A stretch of 16,956 nucleotides of DNA from an uncultured Methylobacillus sp. (lineage in GTDB: Bacteria > Pseudomonadota > Gammaproteobacteria > Burkholderiales > Methylophilaceae), in contig CAMLME010000021.1 in assembly GCA_946481235.1 (NCBI GenBank), positions 1 through 16,956 of the forward strand, in the 5' to 3' direction. The notes under the pieces were generated by a model. That model was not told the DNA's origin. It saw nothing but the letters and a program-made list of their open reading frames with translations, and made no database searches. The position numbers and the translations under genes are program-made. The stretch's first letter is position 1, and every line of letters begins with the position of its first letter. Positions 10,683-16,456 of the stretch are shown here, piece by piece.

Positions 10683-10713
10683 ATTCCCATGGGATGCTCT
10701 GCCCCATGGGAAT
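10683..10713. repeat. 11-bp perfect inverted repeat over the glycosyltransferase start
   Basis: ATTCCCATGGG (10683-10693) and CCCATGGGAAT (10703-10713) are exact inverted repeats around a 9-base loop. Each arm also contains the self-complementary octamer CCCATGGG. The first candidate start codon (10694) opens the loop and the second (10706) lies in the 3' arm. There is no T-tract, so it is not a standard terminator for glmM. It could be an mRNA hairpin controlling translation or a protein-binding site. Confidence 0.6.
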
Positions 10714-11896
10714 CACGCCTGATACTCCAATCGCCGCACTTGAACGCGGCAACCTCCATCTCAGCCTGGTAACTGAAACATGGCCACCTGAAATCAATGG
10801 TGTGGCGATGACCCTCTCGCGCCTGGCGGAAGGTCTTTCCTCGCGCCATTGGCAGGTTGATATTATCCGGCCGCGCCAACGGGGTGAAATCACCGAACCC
10901 GCTGATTCGATCATGAGGCATTACCTGGTGCCGGGGTTGCCGATTCCCGGATATGCCGGTCTGCGCTTCGGTTTGCCGGTTACTTCGTTGCTGGAGCGTG
11001 CATGGACGGAACGCCGGCCAAGCATCGTGCATATTGCTACCGAAGGGCCGCTTGGCTGGGCGGCATTGAAGGTGGCGCGCAGGATGCTGATACCAGTCAC
11101 CACGACCTTTCATACCAATTTCCATCGCTATTGCAGGCATTACCGCCTTGGTTGGCTGCGCGGTGCCGTTACACGGCATCTGCGCACGCTGCATAACAAC
11201 TCCGCCTGTACCATGGTGCCGGACGCCATGTTGCGGCAAACCCTGCAACAGGAGGGCTACCGCAATGTCGTCGTGCTTGGCCGCGGCGTGGATGCAGGGC
11301 TGTTCGACCCGGCGCGGCGCAATTCGGCGTTGCGAACGGCATGGAAGGTACGCGATGACGATCCGGTCGCGATCCACGTTGGCCGGATGGCGCCGGAAAA
11401 AAATCTGCACGTCGTCGTTTCCGCTTTCGAGCAGATTCTGCGCCGCCAGCCCAGTGCCCGCATGGTGTGGGTCGGCGATGGCCCGGAGTTAGCGAAATTA
11501 CAGCGGAAATATCCCCAGCATGTATTCGCCGGCCCCCGACGCGGTGCGGAGCTGGCCGAGCACTACGCCTCGGCGGATATCTTCCTCTTCCCCAGCCTGA
11601 CGGAAACCTACGGCAACGTCGTGCCCGAGGCGATGGCGAGCGGGTTGGCCGTGGTCGCGTATGACTACGCAGCCGCCGCGATGCATATCAGGCATGACGA
11701 AAATGGGCTGCTGGCACCTTACGGCGATAGCGAGACTTTTCTGCGGCGCGTTTCCGGATTGGCGAGCGATCCGCATCGAATTCGCCAACTGGGAAAGGCA
11801 GCGCGATCGGCAGTGCTGGCCAATTCATGGGAGACAGTCAGCGGGGTTTTTGAAAACTACCTGCATTTGGCAATGCAAGGAGGTCGCAATGAATAA
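10694..11896 (+). CDS. GT4-type (group 1) glycosyltransferase, possibly lipid-directed
   Basis: A retaining GT-B glycosyltransferase of about 400 residues. The N-terminal Rossmann half begins LHLSLVTETWPPEINGVAMT, with the Gly-containing acceptor-side loop after WPPEING. The C-terminal half has VGRMAPEKNL (nucleotide-sugar contact) and the E-x7-E element ETYGNVVPE within FLFPSLTETYGNVVPEAMASG. This pattern resembles MgtA, PimB and SqdX-like enzymes that glycosylate lipids such as diacylglycerol or phosphatidylinositol; the actual donor and acceptor cannot be read from sequence. The start may be 10694 or ATG 10706, both inside a hairpin and neither with a good ribosome binding site. It overlaps the following PAP2 gene by 8 bases, so the two are very likely one operon. 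Confidence 0.88.
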   Translation: MLCPMGITPDTPIAALERGNLHLSLVTETWPPEINGVAMTLSRLAEGLSSRHWQVDIIRPRQRGEITEPADSIMRHYLVPGLPIPGYAGLRFGLPVTSLLERAWTERRPSIVHIATEGPLGWAALKVARRMLIPVTTTFHTNFHRYCRHYRLGWLRGAVTRHLRTLHNNSACTMVPDAMLRQTLQQEGYRNVVVLGRGVDAGLFDPARRNSALRTAWKVRDDDPVAIHVGRMAPEKNLHVVVSAFEQILRRQPSARMVWVGDGPELAKLQRKYPQHVFAGPRRGAELAEHYASADIFLFPSLTETYGNVVPEAMASGLAVVAYDYAAAAMHIRHDENGLLAPYGDSETFLRRVSGLASDPHRIRQLGKAARSAVLANSWETVSGVFENYLHLAMQGGRNE

Positions 11897-12422
11897 GATG
11901 AATTTGTATCTGCATCGCATGCATGCGTTCGATGCGTCGCTGTGCGTGCTGCTCAATCGTACCAGTCGCCATCGCTGGGTAAGGATGGCGTTTCAGTTGG
12001 TCAGCCGGCTTGGCGACGGTGTGTTCTGGTATACGGTGATGCTCGGCATCGTGCTGGCCGATCCGGTCAATGGCTGGTTCCCCGCCTTGCATATGGCATT
12101 GGCCGGGCTGTTCGGAACGCTGATCTACAAATGGCTCAAAGGCAAGACCCTGCGCCCGCGTCCTTACGAGGTGCATCAGGCCATTCTGGTGGCCGGTGCG
12201 CCACTCGATCAGTTCAGTTTTCCTTCCGGGCATACGCTGCATGCGGTTGTATTTTGCAGTGTCGGATTGGTCTATTTCCCGGTTCTGGTCTGGCTTCTAC
12301 TGCCGTTTACGCTGCTGGTTGCGCTGTCCAGGCTGGTGCTCGGCCTGCATTATCCGAGCGACGTTCTGGCGGGTGCTGCCATCGGCGCGCTGATCGCGAG
12401 CGTTTCCTTCATGTTGGTGTAA
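11889..12422 (+). CDS. PAP2-family membrane phosphatase
   Basis: An integral membrane acid phosphatase of the PAP2 superfamily, 177 residues. Likely substrates are lipid phosphates such as phosphatidic acid, phosphatidylglycerophosphate or undecaprenyl pyrophosphate; sequence alone does not choose among them. All three active-site motifs are intact: K-x6-RP at Lys84-Arg91-Pro92, PSGH at 112-115 and SR-x5-H-x3-D at Ser147 to Asp158. Several hydrophobic spans surround them (about 47-59, 65-80, 117-145, 158-177). The ATG is preceded by AAGGAGGT (11877-11884), the best ribosome binding site of the region, lying inside the glycosyltransferase gene. Its end overlaps the convergent phospholipase-like gene by 14 bases. 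Confidence 0.93.
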   Translation: MNKMNLYLHRMHAFDASLCVLLNRTSRHRWVRMAFQLVSRLGDGVFWYTVMLGIVLADPVNGWFPALHMALAGLFGTLIYKWLKGKTLRPRPYEVHQAILVAGAPLDQFSFPSGHTLHAVVFCSVGLVYFPVLVWLLLPFTLLVALSRLVLGLHYPSDVLAGAAIGALIASVSFMLV

Positions 12423-13302
12423 GCGCCGGCTTGAGCGTTTTGTCGGTGATGTACCCGTTTGCAGTATGCGGCAGCGGCGAGAACAGCCCGATGGGCGCAG
12501 GGTGGCGACCTTCCAGTTGCGACAGGCTGTCCTGGCGCAACTGCTGCAACATGTGCGGCTCGTGCCTGGGGTCGGCTTCCCAGGCAGGGCAGCTACCCCT
12601 TTCGATCACGGTGTCGATCTTTTCCAGCATGGTTTGCGTCTGCGAGATGTAATAGACGAAGTGGCGAAACACGCGGCGGTCGATGCGTCGGAAGGTGTGG
12701 TAAAGAATATGCGGCAAGCGGACCGTGCGCAGTAGCCGGTCCGCATTGGCCAGCCTGGAAATTGCTTGCTGCGCGCGCTGCGGCGTGCAATGAAAGCGGC
12801 GCGCCATGATGGGGGCGAGTACTGCGCTGTGCGCTTGTAGCAGGCGATGGGGAGTCGTCGGCACCATGTCTGCAATATGCGCGTCCACCGCCCACTCACT
12901 GGAGACGTGGGTGAGCAGGGTTTTGTCCAGCCACATGGCCTCGTGGGCCGGCACGAAGTGATTGTGTGCCACTACATCGACCAGCAGATGACTGGCGTAG
13001 CCCAGCGCGACAGCGGTTTCTTCGTCGCTGCGCGCGCCATGTAGCAGGGGGTGAATATGATCCCAGCGGTGGGTATCGCGGAAGGCGGGGGAAATCAGCG
13101 CGAGGTCGGGCAGGCAGGCGCCGGCCAGTACCAGTTCGGGGAATTTCTGTGCGGCACGGCGCAGGTTGGGGTCAGCCAAGGGCAGCGTCCACAGCAGCCA
13201 CTGTGCGAAATAGACATGGGTCAGCAGGCCCCAGGCCTGCGCATCCCCGCTTTGCAGCAGCAGCGGCGGCAGCCATAACAACAGGTAGCGTCGTCCGTTC
13301 AT
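12409..13302 (-). CDS. exported zinc-dependent phospholipase C-like protein
   Basis: A 297-residue protein related to the zinc-dependent phospholipase C family (PF00882 type). From ATG 13302, a signal peptide (residues 1-23, Arg-Arg then LLLWLPPLLL, ending AQA) would leave Trp24 as the mature N-terminus. In Bacillus cereus phospholipase C the N-terminal Trp1 is itself a zinc ligand. Other ligand-like positions keep the family spacing: Asp66, His105-x3-Asp109, His115 and His132-x3-Glu136. It would act outside the cytoplasmic membrane, plausibly cleaving phospholipid to diacylglycerol and a phospho-headgroup. A TTG nine bases upstream (13311) is in frame, but it falls inside the best-spaced -10 candidate. 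No ribosome binding site is seen. A Pho-box-like array lies upstream. Confidence 0.82.
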   Translation of the reverse strand: MNGRRYLLLWLPPLLLQSGDAQAWGLLTHVYFAQWLLWTLPLADPNLRRAAQKFPELVLAGACLPDLALISPAFRDTHRWDHIHPLLHGARSDEETAVALGYASHLLVDVVAHNHFVPAHEAMWLDKTLLTHVSSEWAVDAHIADMVPTTPHRLLQAHSAVLAPIMARRFHCTPQRAQQAISRLANADRLLRTVRLPHILYHTFRRIDRRVFRHFVYYISQTQTMLEKIDTVIERGSCPAWEADPRHEPHMLQQLRQDSLSQLEGRHPAPIGLFSPLPHTANGYITDKTLKPALTPT

Positions 13303-13325
13303 GACGCGCAATGTGCCGTGCAGGC

Positions 13326-13365
13326 GTGAAAATAGCGTGACAGACGGGTGATTTTATCGTGACAG
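13326..13365 (-). promoter_or_regulatory. four-unit Pho-box-like array upstream of the phospholipase C-like gene
   Basis: On the + strand the heptamers GTGAAAA (13326), GTGACAG (13337), GTGATTT (13348) and GTGACAG (13359) start exactly 11 bases apart with 4-base spacers. Read on the - strand they are CTGTCAC, AAATCAC, CTGTCAC and TTTTCAC. This matches the PhoB repeat (CTGTCAT/C every 11 bp), running toward the phospholipase-like gene. Ten bases after the last unit is CACATT (13315-13310), a weak -10 that would make the message nearly leaderless from ATG 13302. TATTTT (13334-13329) is an alternative -10. The array also lies just upstream of the dgkA -10. Confidence 0.68.
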
Positions 13366-13382
13366 CGCGGGGCTGCTATACT
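13354..13382 (+). promoter_or_regulatory. candidate dgkA promoter
   Basis: A good -10 box, TATACT (13377-13382), has a poor -35, TTATCG (13354-13359), at 17 bases. The -35 region is occupied by the last units of the Pho-like array, whose right edge is 11 bases before the -10. Transcription would start near 13389, some 20 bases before the dgkA ATG. Confidence 0.45.
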
Positions 13383-13409
13383 CCGCGAGAATTGAAACCA
13401 GGGGTAATC

Positions 13410-13778
13410 ATGGAAAGTCCATTCAAGGGGAAAACTGGCCTGCGCAGGCTGATGAATGCGTTCGGCTATTCGATGGCGGGACTGAAGGCCGCTTACCAGA
13501 ACGAAGATGCATTCCGACAGGAAGTCCTGCTGGCGATCATCCTGCTGCCGCTGGCTTTTTTCCTTGAGCACGAGGCTATCGGCCGCGCGCTGATGGTGGG
13601 CAGCGTGCTGCTGGTGATGGTGGTGGAATTATTGAACTCCGCAGTCGAGGCGACGGTGGACCGCATTTCGCTGGAGAACCATCTGCTGGCAAAACGGGCC
13701 AAGGATATCGGCAGTGCAGCGGTGTTCATCAGCCTGGTCAATCTTGCCCTGGTTTGGGGGCTGGTGTTGTTCGCTTGA
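13410..13778 (+). CDS. dgkA: diacylglycerol kinase (DgkA family)
   Basis: Small trimeric integral membrane kinase that converts diacylglycerol to phosphatidic acid using ATP. The start is placed at ATG 13410, giving 122 residues, the same length as the E. coli enzyme. A GTG at 13359 in the same frame would add 17 unrelated residues and lies upstream of the -10 box. Conserved elements are NEDAFRQE (about 31-38) and the catalytic helix VELLNSAVEATVDRI, followed by RAKDIGSAAVFI. Three hydrophobic helices are visible (about 38-55, 57-75, 98-122). CAGGGGT precedes the ATG. It is divergent from the phospholipase-like gene, so producer and consumer of diacylglycerol share one regulatory region. Confidence 0.95.
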   Translation: MESPFKGKTGLRRLMNAFGYSMAGLKAAYQNEDAFRQEVLLAIILLPLAFFLEHEAIGRALMVGSVLLVMVVELLNSAVEATVDRISLENHLLAKRAKDIGSAAVFISLVNLALVWGLVLFA

Positions 13779-13783
13779 GTAAT

Positions 13784-13850
13784 GCGTCACATCGCCGTCA
13801 TCGGTTTTTCCTCAGTTTGTCACGTTAGCTTCACATAGCGGCACTAATCT
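13784..13850 (+). promoter_or_regulatory. five-unit Pho-box-like array and PhoB-type promoter
   Basis: Heptamers GCGTCAC (13784), CCGTCAT (13795), TTTTCCT (13806), TTGTCAC (13817) and GCTTCAC (13828) start exactly 11 bases apart with 4-base spacers. Four of the five carry TCA[C/T]. The last unit ends at 13834, exactly 10 bases before a -10-like TAATCT (13845-13850). No -35 box stands at the usual place: the last unit occupies it, as in PhoB-activated promoters. Transcription would start near 13857, about 37 bases before the first gene of the Sia-like cassette. Spacing and motif are visible; PhoB binding is inferred. Confidence 0.75.
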
Positions 13851-13893
13851 TGTAGGACATCAATCGGGCGCAAGCCCTTCCATTGGAGTCCTC

Positions 13894-15177
13894 ATGCTTA
13901 ATGCTTCTGCAATCACCGAGTCCCGTGCCGGGCTGGCCGAGATCGAGTCGGAGTACATCGCGCGTAGCCTGCTGCGCGCCGCCCCCATTGTTACCCCGCT
14001 GCAAACTAACGACGAAGTTCTGCAACTCCTGACCGATCATCCCGAGGTGATCGGCCTGCCGGTGGTGGAAAACGGCAAGCCCATCGGCCTCATCAACCGC
14101 AACATCTTCATGGACGGGCTGGCCAAGCCGTTTCGCCGCGAGTTGTACGGCCGCAAGAGCTGCATTGCCTTCATGGACAAGCAGCCGCTGATCGTCGATG
14201 AGAACATGAGCATCCAGGAGTTGAGCTTCAAGGTAGTCGGCGCGGGCGGCAAGACGCTGAACGACGGCTTTGTGATCACCGGCGATGCGGGGCGGTATCT
14301 GGGCGTCGGTACCGGCGAAGACCTGGTGCGCGTGGTCACGCACTTGCAGGCCGAGAAAAACCGGCTGGTGATGGAGAGCATCAACTACGCCAGCGTGATC
14401 CAGAAGTCCTTTCTGCGCGCCTCGCGCGAGGACATGGCGGCTTCGCTCGGCGATTACTTCATGCACTGGGAGCCGCGCGACAAGGTTGGCGGCGACTATT
14501 ACTTCTGCAAGAAATTCGACGACGGCTTTTTCATCGCGCTGATCGACTGCACCGGCCACGGCGTGCCGGGCGCTTTCATGACGCTGATCATGGCGTCTTT
14601 CCTCGACCACATTCTGCTGGAAGACAACCGTCACGACCCGGCCGGTGCGCTGGCGCTGATGAACCGCAAGGTGAAGACGGCGCTGGGCCAAATCGGCGAA
14701 CAGAACATCGTGCCCATCGACGGGTCGCGCTTTGCCAAGATGACCGACAAGGAACAATCCGACGACGGCATGGATACCGCGTTTTGCTGGGTCAGCCTGG
14801 CGCAGGGCAAGATGATCTATGCAGGCGCCAAGACACCGCTCTTCCTGCTGGAGCCGGGGGCAAGCGAGGTCACGCTGATCGATGGCGACAAGAAGGGCGT
14901 CGGCTATGTCGAAACACCGATGGACTACGCCTGGACCAATCGCGAAATCGCGCTGGCCAAGGGCGCGCGCGTTTATCTCACCACCGACGGCATCATCGAC
15001 CAGATCGGCGGACCCAAGGACATCGCCTTCGGCAAACGCCGCTTTTCGGCGCTGTTGCTGGAGCACGGCGCCAAGCCGATGGCCGAGCAGGAAGCCATCG
15101 TCATGCAGGCTTTCTACGAATATCAGGGCACGCAGCGCCGCCGCGACGACGTCAGCCTGCTCGGCTTTACCGTTTAA
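13894..15177 (+). CDS. SiaA-like PP2C/SpoIIE-type phosphatase with N-terminal CBS-like domains
   Basis: A 427-residue serine/threonine phosphatase. The N-terminal part (about 15-150) looks like a CBS pair (VIGLPVVENGKPIGLINRNIFM, read as two segments VIGLPVVENGK and PIGLINRNIFM, then GRYLGVGTGEDLVRVV), so it is a candidate nucleotide or ligand sensor. A short helical linker (about 150-185) leads to the SpoIIE/PP2C domain. Metal-binding acids are Asp196 and Asp201 in DKVGGDYY, Asp218 in DCTGHGVPGA, Asp365 in TTDGIIDQ and Asp418/Asp419 in RRDDVSLLGF. No transmembrane segment is seen, unlike membrane-bound SiaA of Pseudomonas aeruginosa. By analogy it would dephosphorylate the SiaC-like protein encoded two genes downstream. 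GGAG precedes the ATG. A Pho-type promoter lies upstream. Confidence 0.85.
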   Translation: MLNASAITESRAGLAEIESEYIARSLLRAAPIVTPLQTNDEVLQLLTDHPEVIGLPVVENGKPIGLINRNIFMDGLAKPFRRELYGRKSCIAFMDKQPLIVDENMSIQELSFKVVGAGGKTLNDGFVITGDAGRYLGVGTGEDLVRVVTHLQAEKNRLVMESINYASVIQKSFLRASREDMAASLGDYFMHWEPRDKVGGDYYFCKKFDDGFFIALIDCTGHGVPGAFMTLIMASFLDHILLEDNRHDPAGALALMNRKVKTALGQIGEQNIVPIDGSRFAKMTDKEQSDDGMDTAFCWVSLAQGKMIYAGAKTPLFLLEPGASEVTLIDGDKKGVGYVETPMDYAWTNREIALAKGARVYLTTDGIIDQIGGPKDIAFGKRRFSALLLEHGAKPMAEQEAIVMQAFYEYQGTQRRRDDVSLLGFTV

Positions 15178-15191
15178 CTTCAGGGATCACC

Positions 15192-15749
15192 ATGCAACTC
15201 GATTTATTCAGCGTTTTCCGCAACACCGCCGACTTCAACGGCGTGCTCTTCTACTACAACGGCAGCTTGTCGCAGAACGTCATCGCGACCATGGGCGACG
15301 CGCTGAAACAGCGCCTGGAAAGCCAGGACACCAGCGGCCCCAAGGCGCGCCGGCTGTTTTCCAGCTTCATCGAGATGGTGCAGAACGCGCTGCACTATTC
15401 GCCCGATGCGCCGGACTCCGCAGGCGAGAAGGTCGGCGCTGTCGCGGTAGGAAAGCGCGACGACAAGTACTACATCGTATGCGGCAACCTGGTGGAGCAG
15501 CAGCACGTCGAGCGCATCCGCCAAAAAATCGAGCCGTTGCGCAACATGACCATGGACGAAATCAAAAAGGCTTACCGCGAACAGCTCAAGAACGAACATC
15601 ACGGCGACCAGGATAGCGTAAGCAAGGGCGCCGGACTGGGTTTCCTGACGCTGGCGCGCGACGCCTCTGAACCCATCGAGTATTCACTGACCCCGGTTGA
15701 CGGGCACGAAAGCGAACTCGCCTATTTCTATCTCAAAGCGACTGTATAA
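15192..15749 (+). CDS. siaB: SiaB-family protein kinase
   Basis: A 185-residue cytoplasmic protein of the SiaB family, a kinase related to GHKL ATPases. In Pseudomonas it phosphorylates SiaC and opposes the SiaA phosphatase. The N-box-like helix FIEMVQNALHYSPD (about 57-70) and the glycine loop SKGAGLGFLTLARDA (about 143-157) are the visible ATP-site features. The first ATG after the preceding stop (14 bases away) is used, with a modest AGGGAT ribosome binding site; the longer frame upstream is only an overlap with the phosphatase gene. The kinase-phosphatase-substrate order matches siaA-siaB-siaC. Confidence 0.85.
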   Translation: MQLDLFSVFRNTADFNGVLFYYNGSLSQNVIATMGDALKQRLESQDTSGPKARRLFSSFIEMVQNALHYSPDAPDSAGEKVGAVAVGKRDDKYYIVCGNLVEQQHVERIRQKIEPLRNMTMDEIKKAYREQLKNEHHGDQDSVSKGAGLGFLTLARDASEPIEYSLTPVDGHESELAYFYLKATV

Positions 15750-15758
15750 GGAGTCACC

Positions 15759-16154
15759 ATGAACGATATCTATCTCGCCCGCACCACGCATTCACCCGAA
15801 GTCGATTTCCGCTTTTCCGAACACACGCTCACCCTGACCGGCGAGGCCTATCCGGAAAATGCCAACGAATTTTTCCATCCATTGCTGATGGGGCTTGAGA
15901 GCTACCTGAAGTCCGTGGACAGTCTCGACATCGAATTCAATTTCCGCCTGACGTATTTCAACAGCGCCGCCACCAAGATGATCTACAGCATGTTCGAACT
16001 GTTGAATGAATCGGCCTGCACCAACAACCGTGTGATCCTCAACTGGTACTACGACGAAGAGGACGACACCATTCTCGAATTCGGCGATGGCATACACGAC
16101 GACTTCAACGCGCTGGATTACCGGCCGATGGCGGTGGATCTGGCAATGGCTTGA
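15759..16154 (+). CDS. siaC: SiaC-family regulatory phosphoprotein (DUF1987)
   Basis: A 131-residue protein of the SiaC/DUF1987 family, the phosphorylated switch of the Sia pathway. The segment FRLTYFNSAATKMIYSMFEL (about 62-81) matches the family core, and the phospho-acceptor is expected within YFNSAATK (Ser69 or Thr72); the exact residue cannot be fixed here. The acidic stretch WYYDEEDD (96-103) is also typical. AAGGAGT 5 bases before the ATG and a 9-base gap from siaB indicate one operon. In Pseudomonas, unphosphorylated SiaC activates the diguanylate cyclase SiaD. No cyclase gene follows here, so the output partner is unknown. Confidence 0.86.
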   Translation: MNDIYLARTTHSPEVDFRFSEHTLTLTGEAYPENANEFFHPLLMGLESYLKSVDSLDIEFNFRLTYFNSAATKMIYSMFELLNESACTNNRVILNWYYDEEDDTILEFGDGIHDDFNALDYRPMAVDLAMA

Positions 16155-16293: not shown

Positions 16294-16365
16294 ATGTGGA
16301 CCAAACCTGAAGCAACGGAAATGCGTTTCGGTTTCGAAGTAACGATGTACGTTTGCAATCGTTAA
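16294..16365 (+). CDS. pqqA: PQQ precursor peptide PqqA
   Basis: A 23-residue peptide, the ribosomal precursor of the redox cofactor pyrroloquinoline quinone. It starts MWTKP and ends FEVTMYVCNR. Glu15 and Tyr19, the residues joined by PqqE to form the cofactor, are in the conserved E-x3-Y spacing, and the length equals that of Klebsiella and Pseudomonas PqqA. AAAGGAGG (16279-16286), 7 bases before the ATG, is one of the strongest ribosome binding sites in the window. Cys21 is unusual beside the Ser/Ala I recall at this place. No pqqB, C, D or E gene is present, so maturation must depend on genes elsewhere or this is an extra copy. Confidence 0.9.
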   Translation: MWTKPEATEMRFGFEVTMYVCNR

Positions 16366-16382
16366 TCGGTTACGCGCCATTC

Positions 16383-16418
16383 ACATTAACGGGAGCTAAA
16401 ACGCTCCCGTTAATGTTT
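16383..16418 (+). terminator. 14-bp perfect hairpin after pqqA
   Basis: ACATTAACGGGAGC (16383-16396) and GCTCCCGTTAATGT (16403-16416) pair perfectly around the 6-base loop TAAAAC. Only three T follow, so termination may be partial. Hairpins behind pqqA that keep its transcript more abundant than downstream genes are a known arrangement. Here it separates pqqA from the chemoreceptor gene. Confidence 0.7.
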
Positions 16419-16456
16419 GGTGGATAAAACAATAAACAATAAAAAGAGGGGAAGTC

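Follow-up and report, generated by a model that had tools for sequence, protein, structure and literature searches.

The window analysed here, a stretch of 16,956 nucleotides from an uncultured Methylobacillus sp., carries on its forward strand a three-gene cassette (13894–16154) whose products belong to the families of the SiaA, SiaB and SiaC partner-switch proteins. The first gene (13894–15177) is siaA-like and encodes a protein of 427 aa that joins a CBS input domain (PF00571) to a SpoIIE/PP2C phosphatase domain (PF07228; PDB 6k4e, E 5.7e-45). The second (15192–15749) encodes a SiaB-family protein kinase (NF038262 above cut-off; PDB 6kko_A, E 7.2e-23), and the third (15759–16154) a SiaC-family phosphoprotein (PF09345 above cut-off; PDB 6kko/6k4f, E about 1e-12). 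A GGAG at 13885–13888 (+) is the probable ribosome-binding site of siaA, and the upstream neighbour, also on the forward strand, is dgkA (13410–13778), which encodes a diacylglycerol kinase (PF01219).

The residues on which such a switch would depend are conserved. The PP2C domain of SiaA has its catalytic Asp residues: Asp 201, 218 and 365 are invariant (76 of 76 aligned), as is Asp 419 (74 of 74), and from what is known of PP2C enzymes we take these to be metal-binding. A Glu and an Asn of SiaB are conserved in 73 of 73 aligned sequences, and Ser69 of SiaC lies at the position of Pseudomonas aeruginosa Thr68, being Ser in all 71 aligned CBS-type sequences. The cassette had originally been called Sia-like. 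This holds in so far as all three proteins are homologous to the Sia families and structures, but the likeness stops at the CBS input, the Ser phosphosite and the lack of an adjoining siaD, no siaD having been found in the window. No N-terminal membrane/HAMP sensor was found in SiaA, where the CBS module stands in its place, and the protein matches the C-terminal part only of model NF038263, with 199.6 bits against a cut-off of 700. SiaB falls within subfamily NF038262 but below the cut-off of equivalog NF038264 (110 of 225 bits), and SiaC likewise below that of equivalog NF038265 (70.4 of 150 bits). Assignment to canonical SiaABCD was rejected on the CBS input, the Ser in place of Thr68 and the absent siaD; judged by these homologies, we have here a variant of the Sia switch.

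The genes on either side deserve brief mention. Between siaC and a downstream MCP gene lies a lone pqqA (16294–16365; 23 aa, TIGR02107 above cut-off), with a strong hairpin 3' of it at about 16377–16423; a search for a pattern of the pqqA start came up empty in the 18 kb surrounding siaABC of Methylobacillus sp. MM3, which, with a SiaA 96% identical to that of the window, is the nearest among the 80 related SiaA loci used for comparison. On the other side, genes for a family-4 glycosyltransferase, a PAP2 phosphatase and a Zn-dependent phospholipase C adjoin dgkA (10694–13778 together), an arrangement suggestive of membrane-lipid remodelling and possibly linked to phosphate.

Between dgkA and the cassette lies an array of short direct repeats. 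The original prediction described five heptamers whose starts are exactly 11 bp apart (13784–13834), TCAC or TCAT in four of them, and a TAATCT beginning after a further 10 bp (13835–13844), and a direct reading of the sequence agrees on each point. All elements are on the forward strand. The three outer heptamers are GCGTCAC (13784–13790), CCGTCAT (13795–13801) and the degenerate TTTTCCT (13806–13812), the one unit with neither TCAC nor TCAT; the two core heptamers are TTGTCAC (13817–13823) and GCTTCAC (13828–13834), the latter at the place of a −35 box, and the −10 box TAATCT occupies 13845–13850. From 13817, the core site thus reads TTGTCAC GTTA GCTTCAC ATAGCGGCAC TAATCT.

To score this region we fitted a PhoB matrix to pstS-type promoters of related genomes, keeping the sia promoters out of the training. 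A search of 30 cassette-carrying genomes gave a pstS-type match in 29, above the family cut-off in 17. Among the 30 pstS-type loci, two partial ones (L096, L097) were left unscanned and another two were set aside for their doubtful starts (L089, L103); 26 upstream regions were scanned and 24 of these entered the matrix, 11 genes of the training set lying below the PstS family cut-off. The seed combined an imposed layout of 7-4-7-10-6 with a consensus, and the columns were re-estimated afterwards, giving TTGTCAT AATn CTGTAAT ATT..., then TAnnAT; the 10-bp spacer columns were set to zero for scoring, and AT-rich promoters may be favoured by the resulting scores.

Matrix scoring, which had been proposed as a check, returned the core pair with its −10 box as the best site of the window: the full 7-4-7-10-6 site at 13817 scores 12.5, the runner-up 8.4, and in 200 dinucleotide shuffles of the upstream region no score as high appeared (p = 0.005, a floor value). 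The heptamers therefore fit the PhoB preference of the lineage as captured by the pstS-fitted matrix, yet they do so unevenly. Core TTGTCAC scores 9.21 (top 0.01% of window positions) and GCTTCAC alone is weak (−0.04, top 3.6%); the outer units score 3.04 (GCGTCAC, top 1%), 6.31 (CCGTCAT, top 0.2%) and 1.33 (TTTTCCT, top 2%). Summed in phase with the heptamer matrix, the five units from 13784 have the top sum among 33,812 positions, both strands counted, and the four-, three- and two-unit sums with the same end rank 3, 5 and 5; the sum of the outer three by themselves is reached at four of 33,856 positions, their own included.

Do relatives that keep the cassette also keep the repeats? A multiple DNA alignment of eight upstream regions was uninformative (mean column identity 34%), and sites were therefore compared by matrix. 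Of the 80 related loci, four whose SiaA match begins at residue 140 or later (L070, L071, L073, L074) were left out and the other 76 were scored, giving 77 with the window. A score of at least 10 was reached in 48 of the 77 cassette upstream regions against 18 of 458 controls, and at least 12 in 44 of 77 against 13 of 458 (Mann–Whitney p about 1e-30, kinship ignored). The controls lie upstream of other, crudely called ORFs of at least 150 aa from the same loci, and their 18 matches include those before siaD in L062 and in L076, as well as two neighbours in Novimethylophilus that may be true sites. After clustering of SiaA at 80% identity, with eight Pseudomonas sequences added (85 proteins), the median score is at least 10 in 29 of 44 clusters and at least 12 in 23 of 44. 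When both gaps were left free in the 44 cluster representatives, the largest excess over mononucleotide-shuffled DNA (14.1) came with a 4-bp gap separating the heptamers and a 10-bp gap before the −10 box, followed by gaps of 4 and 5 bp (8.2), and the next cells mostly share the 4-bp gap. Given the rank of the array, the shuffles, the control upstream regions and the spacing scan, we rejected a chance origin as unlikely.

What recurs is smaller than the array in the window. The upstream region of MM3 has two core units only, CCGTAAC TTTT CCGTAAC, followed after 10 bp by an identical TAATCT, and the outer units, GCGTCAC among them, are absent there, so that conservation of all five units is rejected. 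Of the 29 clusters whose representative has a core site, nine have a further in-phase unit at −11 and four at −22, and none has one at −33 or −44; other offsets occur in zero to three clusters. Leeia, for example, has four in-phase units. Since the outer units are missing from MM3 and those at −33 and −44 from all 29 clusters, it is the two-unit promoter that is the conserved object: the conserved operator consists of two units and the −10 box, and five units are peculiar to the window. The predicted Pho-box promoter before the cassette is supported, though with an operator of two units and not five.

The distribution of the two-unit site is broad but not uniform. Two Methylotenera loci (L007, L008) score 17.8 and 14.4, and a Methylobacter locus (L009) carries GATTCAT CATT TTGTAAT and TATCCT. 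The score is below 10 in 29 of the 77 cassette upstream regions, seven Aquitalea-type sequences scoring 7.4–9.7 and the region ahead of Novimethylophilus siaA a weak 4.4. Within the close family too, no recognisable site was seen in a Methylotenera MAG (L027) and an uncultured Methylophilaceae MAG (L029), their scores of 5.6 and 8.4 not standing above many shuffles. A survey of 150 genomes from the family of MM3 gave some match in 57 and a full or nearly full SiaA in four: MM3 itself (G001) has the site, Novimethylophilus (G002) the weak one, and two genomes (G159, G044), whose upstream regions read the same as those of L027 and L029, have none. At the three loci in which siaD comes first, the box precedes siaD in two (L062, 15.6; L076, 15.1), and no box was found ahead of siaD in the third (L060, 0.3). 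Two further loci (L053, L054) have a short ORF directly upstream of siaA that is BolA-like by eye.

A candidate regulator for such sites is encoded in the relatives: PhoB was found above the curated cut-off in all 40 related genomes searched, a sample of relatives to which the window's own genome does not belong. The genomes of Pseudomonadaceae also allow one to ask whether the box belongs to Sia genes in general or to the CBS type. One Pseudomonas genus group (79 genomes) gave nine CBS-type siaA genes, that of L080 included, with scores of 9.0–21.4, eight of the nine at 10 or more, and all nine sites lie 30–32 bp ahead of the ATG; two HAMP-type genes above cut-off in the same genomes score −0.9 and −6.0. 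The family of G229 (Pseudomonadaceae), surveyed in 248 genomes, gave a HAMP-type SiaA above cut-off in 87. The loci of the best 30 of these 87 were fetched, four of which went unscored with their gene start not located, and none of the 26 scored reached 8 (best −1.3). CBS-type siaA genes in this second survey (n = 13) score 5.6–13.2, at least 10 in nine and at least 12 in two. Within the Pseudomonadaceae sample, then, the box tracks the CBS type rather than Sia genes generally.

Genomic context links the cassette to phosphate in Novimethylophilus (L202:1012-12567), where siaABC lies inside a pst and phosphate-transporter cluster. Ahead of it run pstS, a pair of genes standing where pstC and pstA would be expected, an ABC-transporter ATPase gene, a PhoU-like gene and a gene for a PHO4-family transporter, and then an EAL-CBS-GGDEF gene and an MCP gene, these last two with Pho boxes of their own (14.7 and 17.8). 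Within 12 kb of MM3 siaA we found an EAL-CBS-GGDEF gene (15.1), a divergent glycosyltransferase gene (13.2) and a PHO4-family gene. In the window an MCP gene lies downstream of the cassette, as one does in MM3 to judge from its sequence; in Novimethylophilus the MCP gene is upstream. Genes in these flanks are crude longest-ORF calls, unreliable at high GC, and counts of neighbours come from tblastn. Elsewhere in the window, a Pho-like site on the reverse strand (13343–13310; CTGTCAC GCTA TTTTCAC, 8.4) lies ahead of the gene for the Zn-dependent phospholipase C. MM3 retains this site (10.8), but its −10 box would be no more than about 7 bp away from the ATG.

The CBS input of SiaA is found in other genes too. 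Residues of SiaA up to about 157 match proteins of about 600 residues, at 34–46% identity, in many genomes of the MM3 family; we take these CBS-sharing proteins to be of the EAL-CBS-GGDEF type, the domains having been scanned in those of MM3, Novimethylophilus and one Pseudomonas. Pho boxes scoring at least 10 precede 24 of 26 such genes fetched from the MM3 family (L145–L170, some near-identical), and in Pseudomonas homologues (L246–L265, including two partial matches) the box scores at least 10 in 18 of 20 but at least 12 in only three.

A siaD gene adjoins the cassette in 12 of the 77 loci by tblastn, downstream in nine and upstream in three. At E below 1e-40, five of 28 genomes gave a SiaD match that spans the stalk, MM3 not among them, and a weak match in G009 (E 7e-28) starts at residue 8. 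That MM3 has a hidden SiaD was considered and rejected, as its six matches begin at query residue 47 or later and none runs across the stalk, although divergent stalks are possible. By analogy with P. aeruginosa, the target of SiaC is probably the adjacent SiaD-type diguanylate cyclase in relatives that carry siaD; in the lineage of the window it is perhaps another c-di-GMP enzyme.

Taken together, these features point to a PhoB-activated promoter at 13817–13850 driving a siaABC partner switch, an explanation we hold to be very probable as a whole. Predicted phosphate control of the cassette is well supported at the level of sequence, and the similar site before the cassette in many distantly related bacteria suggests a circuit wired to phosphate hunger. 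We infer the following chain of events. Low phosphate would lead to phosphorylated PhoB, bound at two 11-bp direct-repeat units that replace the −35 box, from where it would position RNA polymerase on TAATCT, so that siaABC is transcribed under phosphate starvation; the units at 13784–13812 are probably additional PhoB-binding sites particular to the window promoter. To judge from the homologues, SiaC would be phosphorylated by SiaB, probably on Ser69, and dephosphorylated by SiaA under the gate of its CBS domain, the probable ligand of which is an adenine nucleotide. In its unphosphorylated form SiaC would then bind and activate its target, which would be a diguanylate cyclase, with c-di-GMP as the output, where siaD is present.

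Three alternatives were weighed. Under one of them, TAATCT belongs to an ordinary sigma-70 promoter and the repeats before it are fortuitous. The poor third heptamer and second core heptamer are consistent with this, as is the loss of the outer units in MM3, but no TTGACA-like hexamer was seen by eye in the window sequence 16–18 bp ahead of TAATCT, and neither the first rank of the five-unit sum nor the recurrence and spacing peak across SiaA clusters is what such a promoter would predict; we consider it very improbable. It is also unlikely, if somewhat less so, that a different regulator of the PhoB/OmpR family with similar 11-bp half-sites binds here and the cassette answers some other signal. 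Members of this family share tandem half-site binding, and the related genomes have 16–56 PhoB-related matches each (one above cut-off in each, two in G035). Against this, a matrix built on pstS promoters fits the siaA site, the free-gap scan peaks at the very gaps imposed for pstS, and siaABC of Novimethylophilus sits within the pst and phosphate-transporter cluster.

The third alternative touches only the output and is compatible with the PhoB promoter: SiaC might govern a partner outside c-di-GMP signalling, for example an anti-sigma-like or chemoreceptor-linked one. This we regard as a serious possibility, while not favouring it. siaD was not found adjoining the cassette in 65 of the 77 loci, the window included (some contigs end early), a stalk-spanning SiaD was seen in only the five of 28 genomes noted above, and the MCP gene stands beside the cassette in the window, MM3 and Novimethylophilus. 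Pulling the other way are the 12 loci in which siaD does adjoin and the CBS input that SiaA has in common with EAL-CBS-GGDEF enzymes. Returning to the PhoB-controlled switch, we tentatively suggest an extension, which may or may not hold: that CBS-SiaABC could form a separate Pho-regulon branch of partner switches across Beta- and Gammaproteobacteria, in which the CBS module would read the internal nucleotide state during phosphate starvation and feed two PhoB-controlled outputs, the PP2C phosphatase SiaA and the EAL-GGDEF enzyme, and in which SiaC would have a new target in SiaD-less lineages.

If correct, the promoter links phosphate starvation to a sister branch of the Sia switches that has another sensor domain and occurs in many other bacteria. 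The ligand of the shared CBS module becomes the obvious next question, and the target of SiaC in SiaD-less lineages a concrete search. In the original prediction, phosphate control of a Sia-type switch is not known to be described, in keeping with which no report of it appeared among the matches listed from open-licence PMC papers (titles and abstract starts); PMC12826045, which combines 'Pho regulon' with 'partner switch', was weighed as a prior report and set aside, as it concerns a different system.

The best-known relative is the switch of P. aeruginosa, in which SiaA and SiaB are reported to set the phosphorylation of T68 and unphosphorylated SiaC to activate SiaD (PMC7647112, PMC8457831), and which is reported to answer carbon supply (PMC7647112) and temperature (PMC12834913). 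It has in common with the window a PP2C SiaA, a kinase SiaB and a phosphoprotein SiaC in identical order, the proteins of the window being homologous to the solved chains, but its SiaA is a membrane protein with a HAMP domain and its phosphosite is Thr68, whereas the window has a CBS-type SiaA, a Ser and no adjoining siaD. The window also has a Pho-box promoter, which none of the 26 HAMP-type siaA genes scored shows. Pho boxes are described as tandem repeats of 7 + 4 bp with a −10 box at fixed distance and without a −35 box (PMC4415409, PMC10294691), and this geometry is common to the pstS-type promoters of the relatives and the peak of the sia free-gap scan. Instead of phosphate uptake, the promoter of the window, with its five units, would control a signalling cassette built on protein phosphorylation. 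A precedent in function is RapA of Pseudomonas fluorescens Pf0-1, a c-di-GMP phosphodiesterase reported to be under PhoB control (PMC3032545). There, too, a Pho box stands before a c-di-GMP regulator and low phosphate is linked to a surface lifestyle; the Pseudomonas EAL-CBS-GGDEF-type genes, most of them boxed, may at a guess belong to the RapA family. The cassette offers a direct test of how phosphate hunger may act on the surface lifestyle outside this worked-out case (PMC3032545), with one difference in kind: RapA, as reported, is an enzyme of c-di-GMP itself, whereas the cassette of the window is a partner switch.
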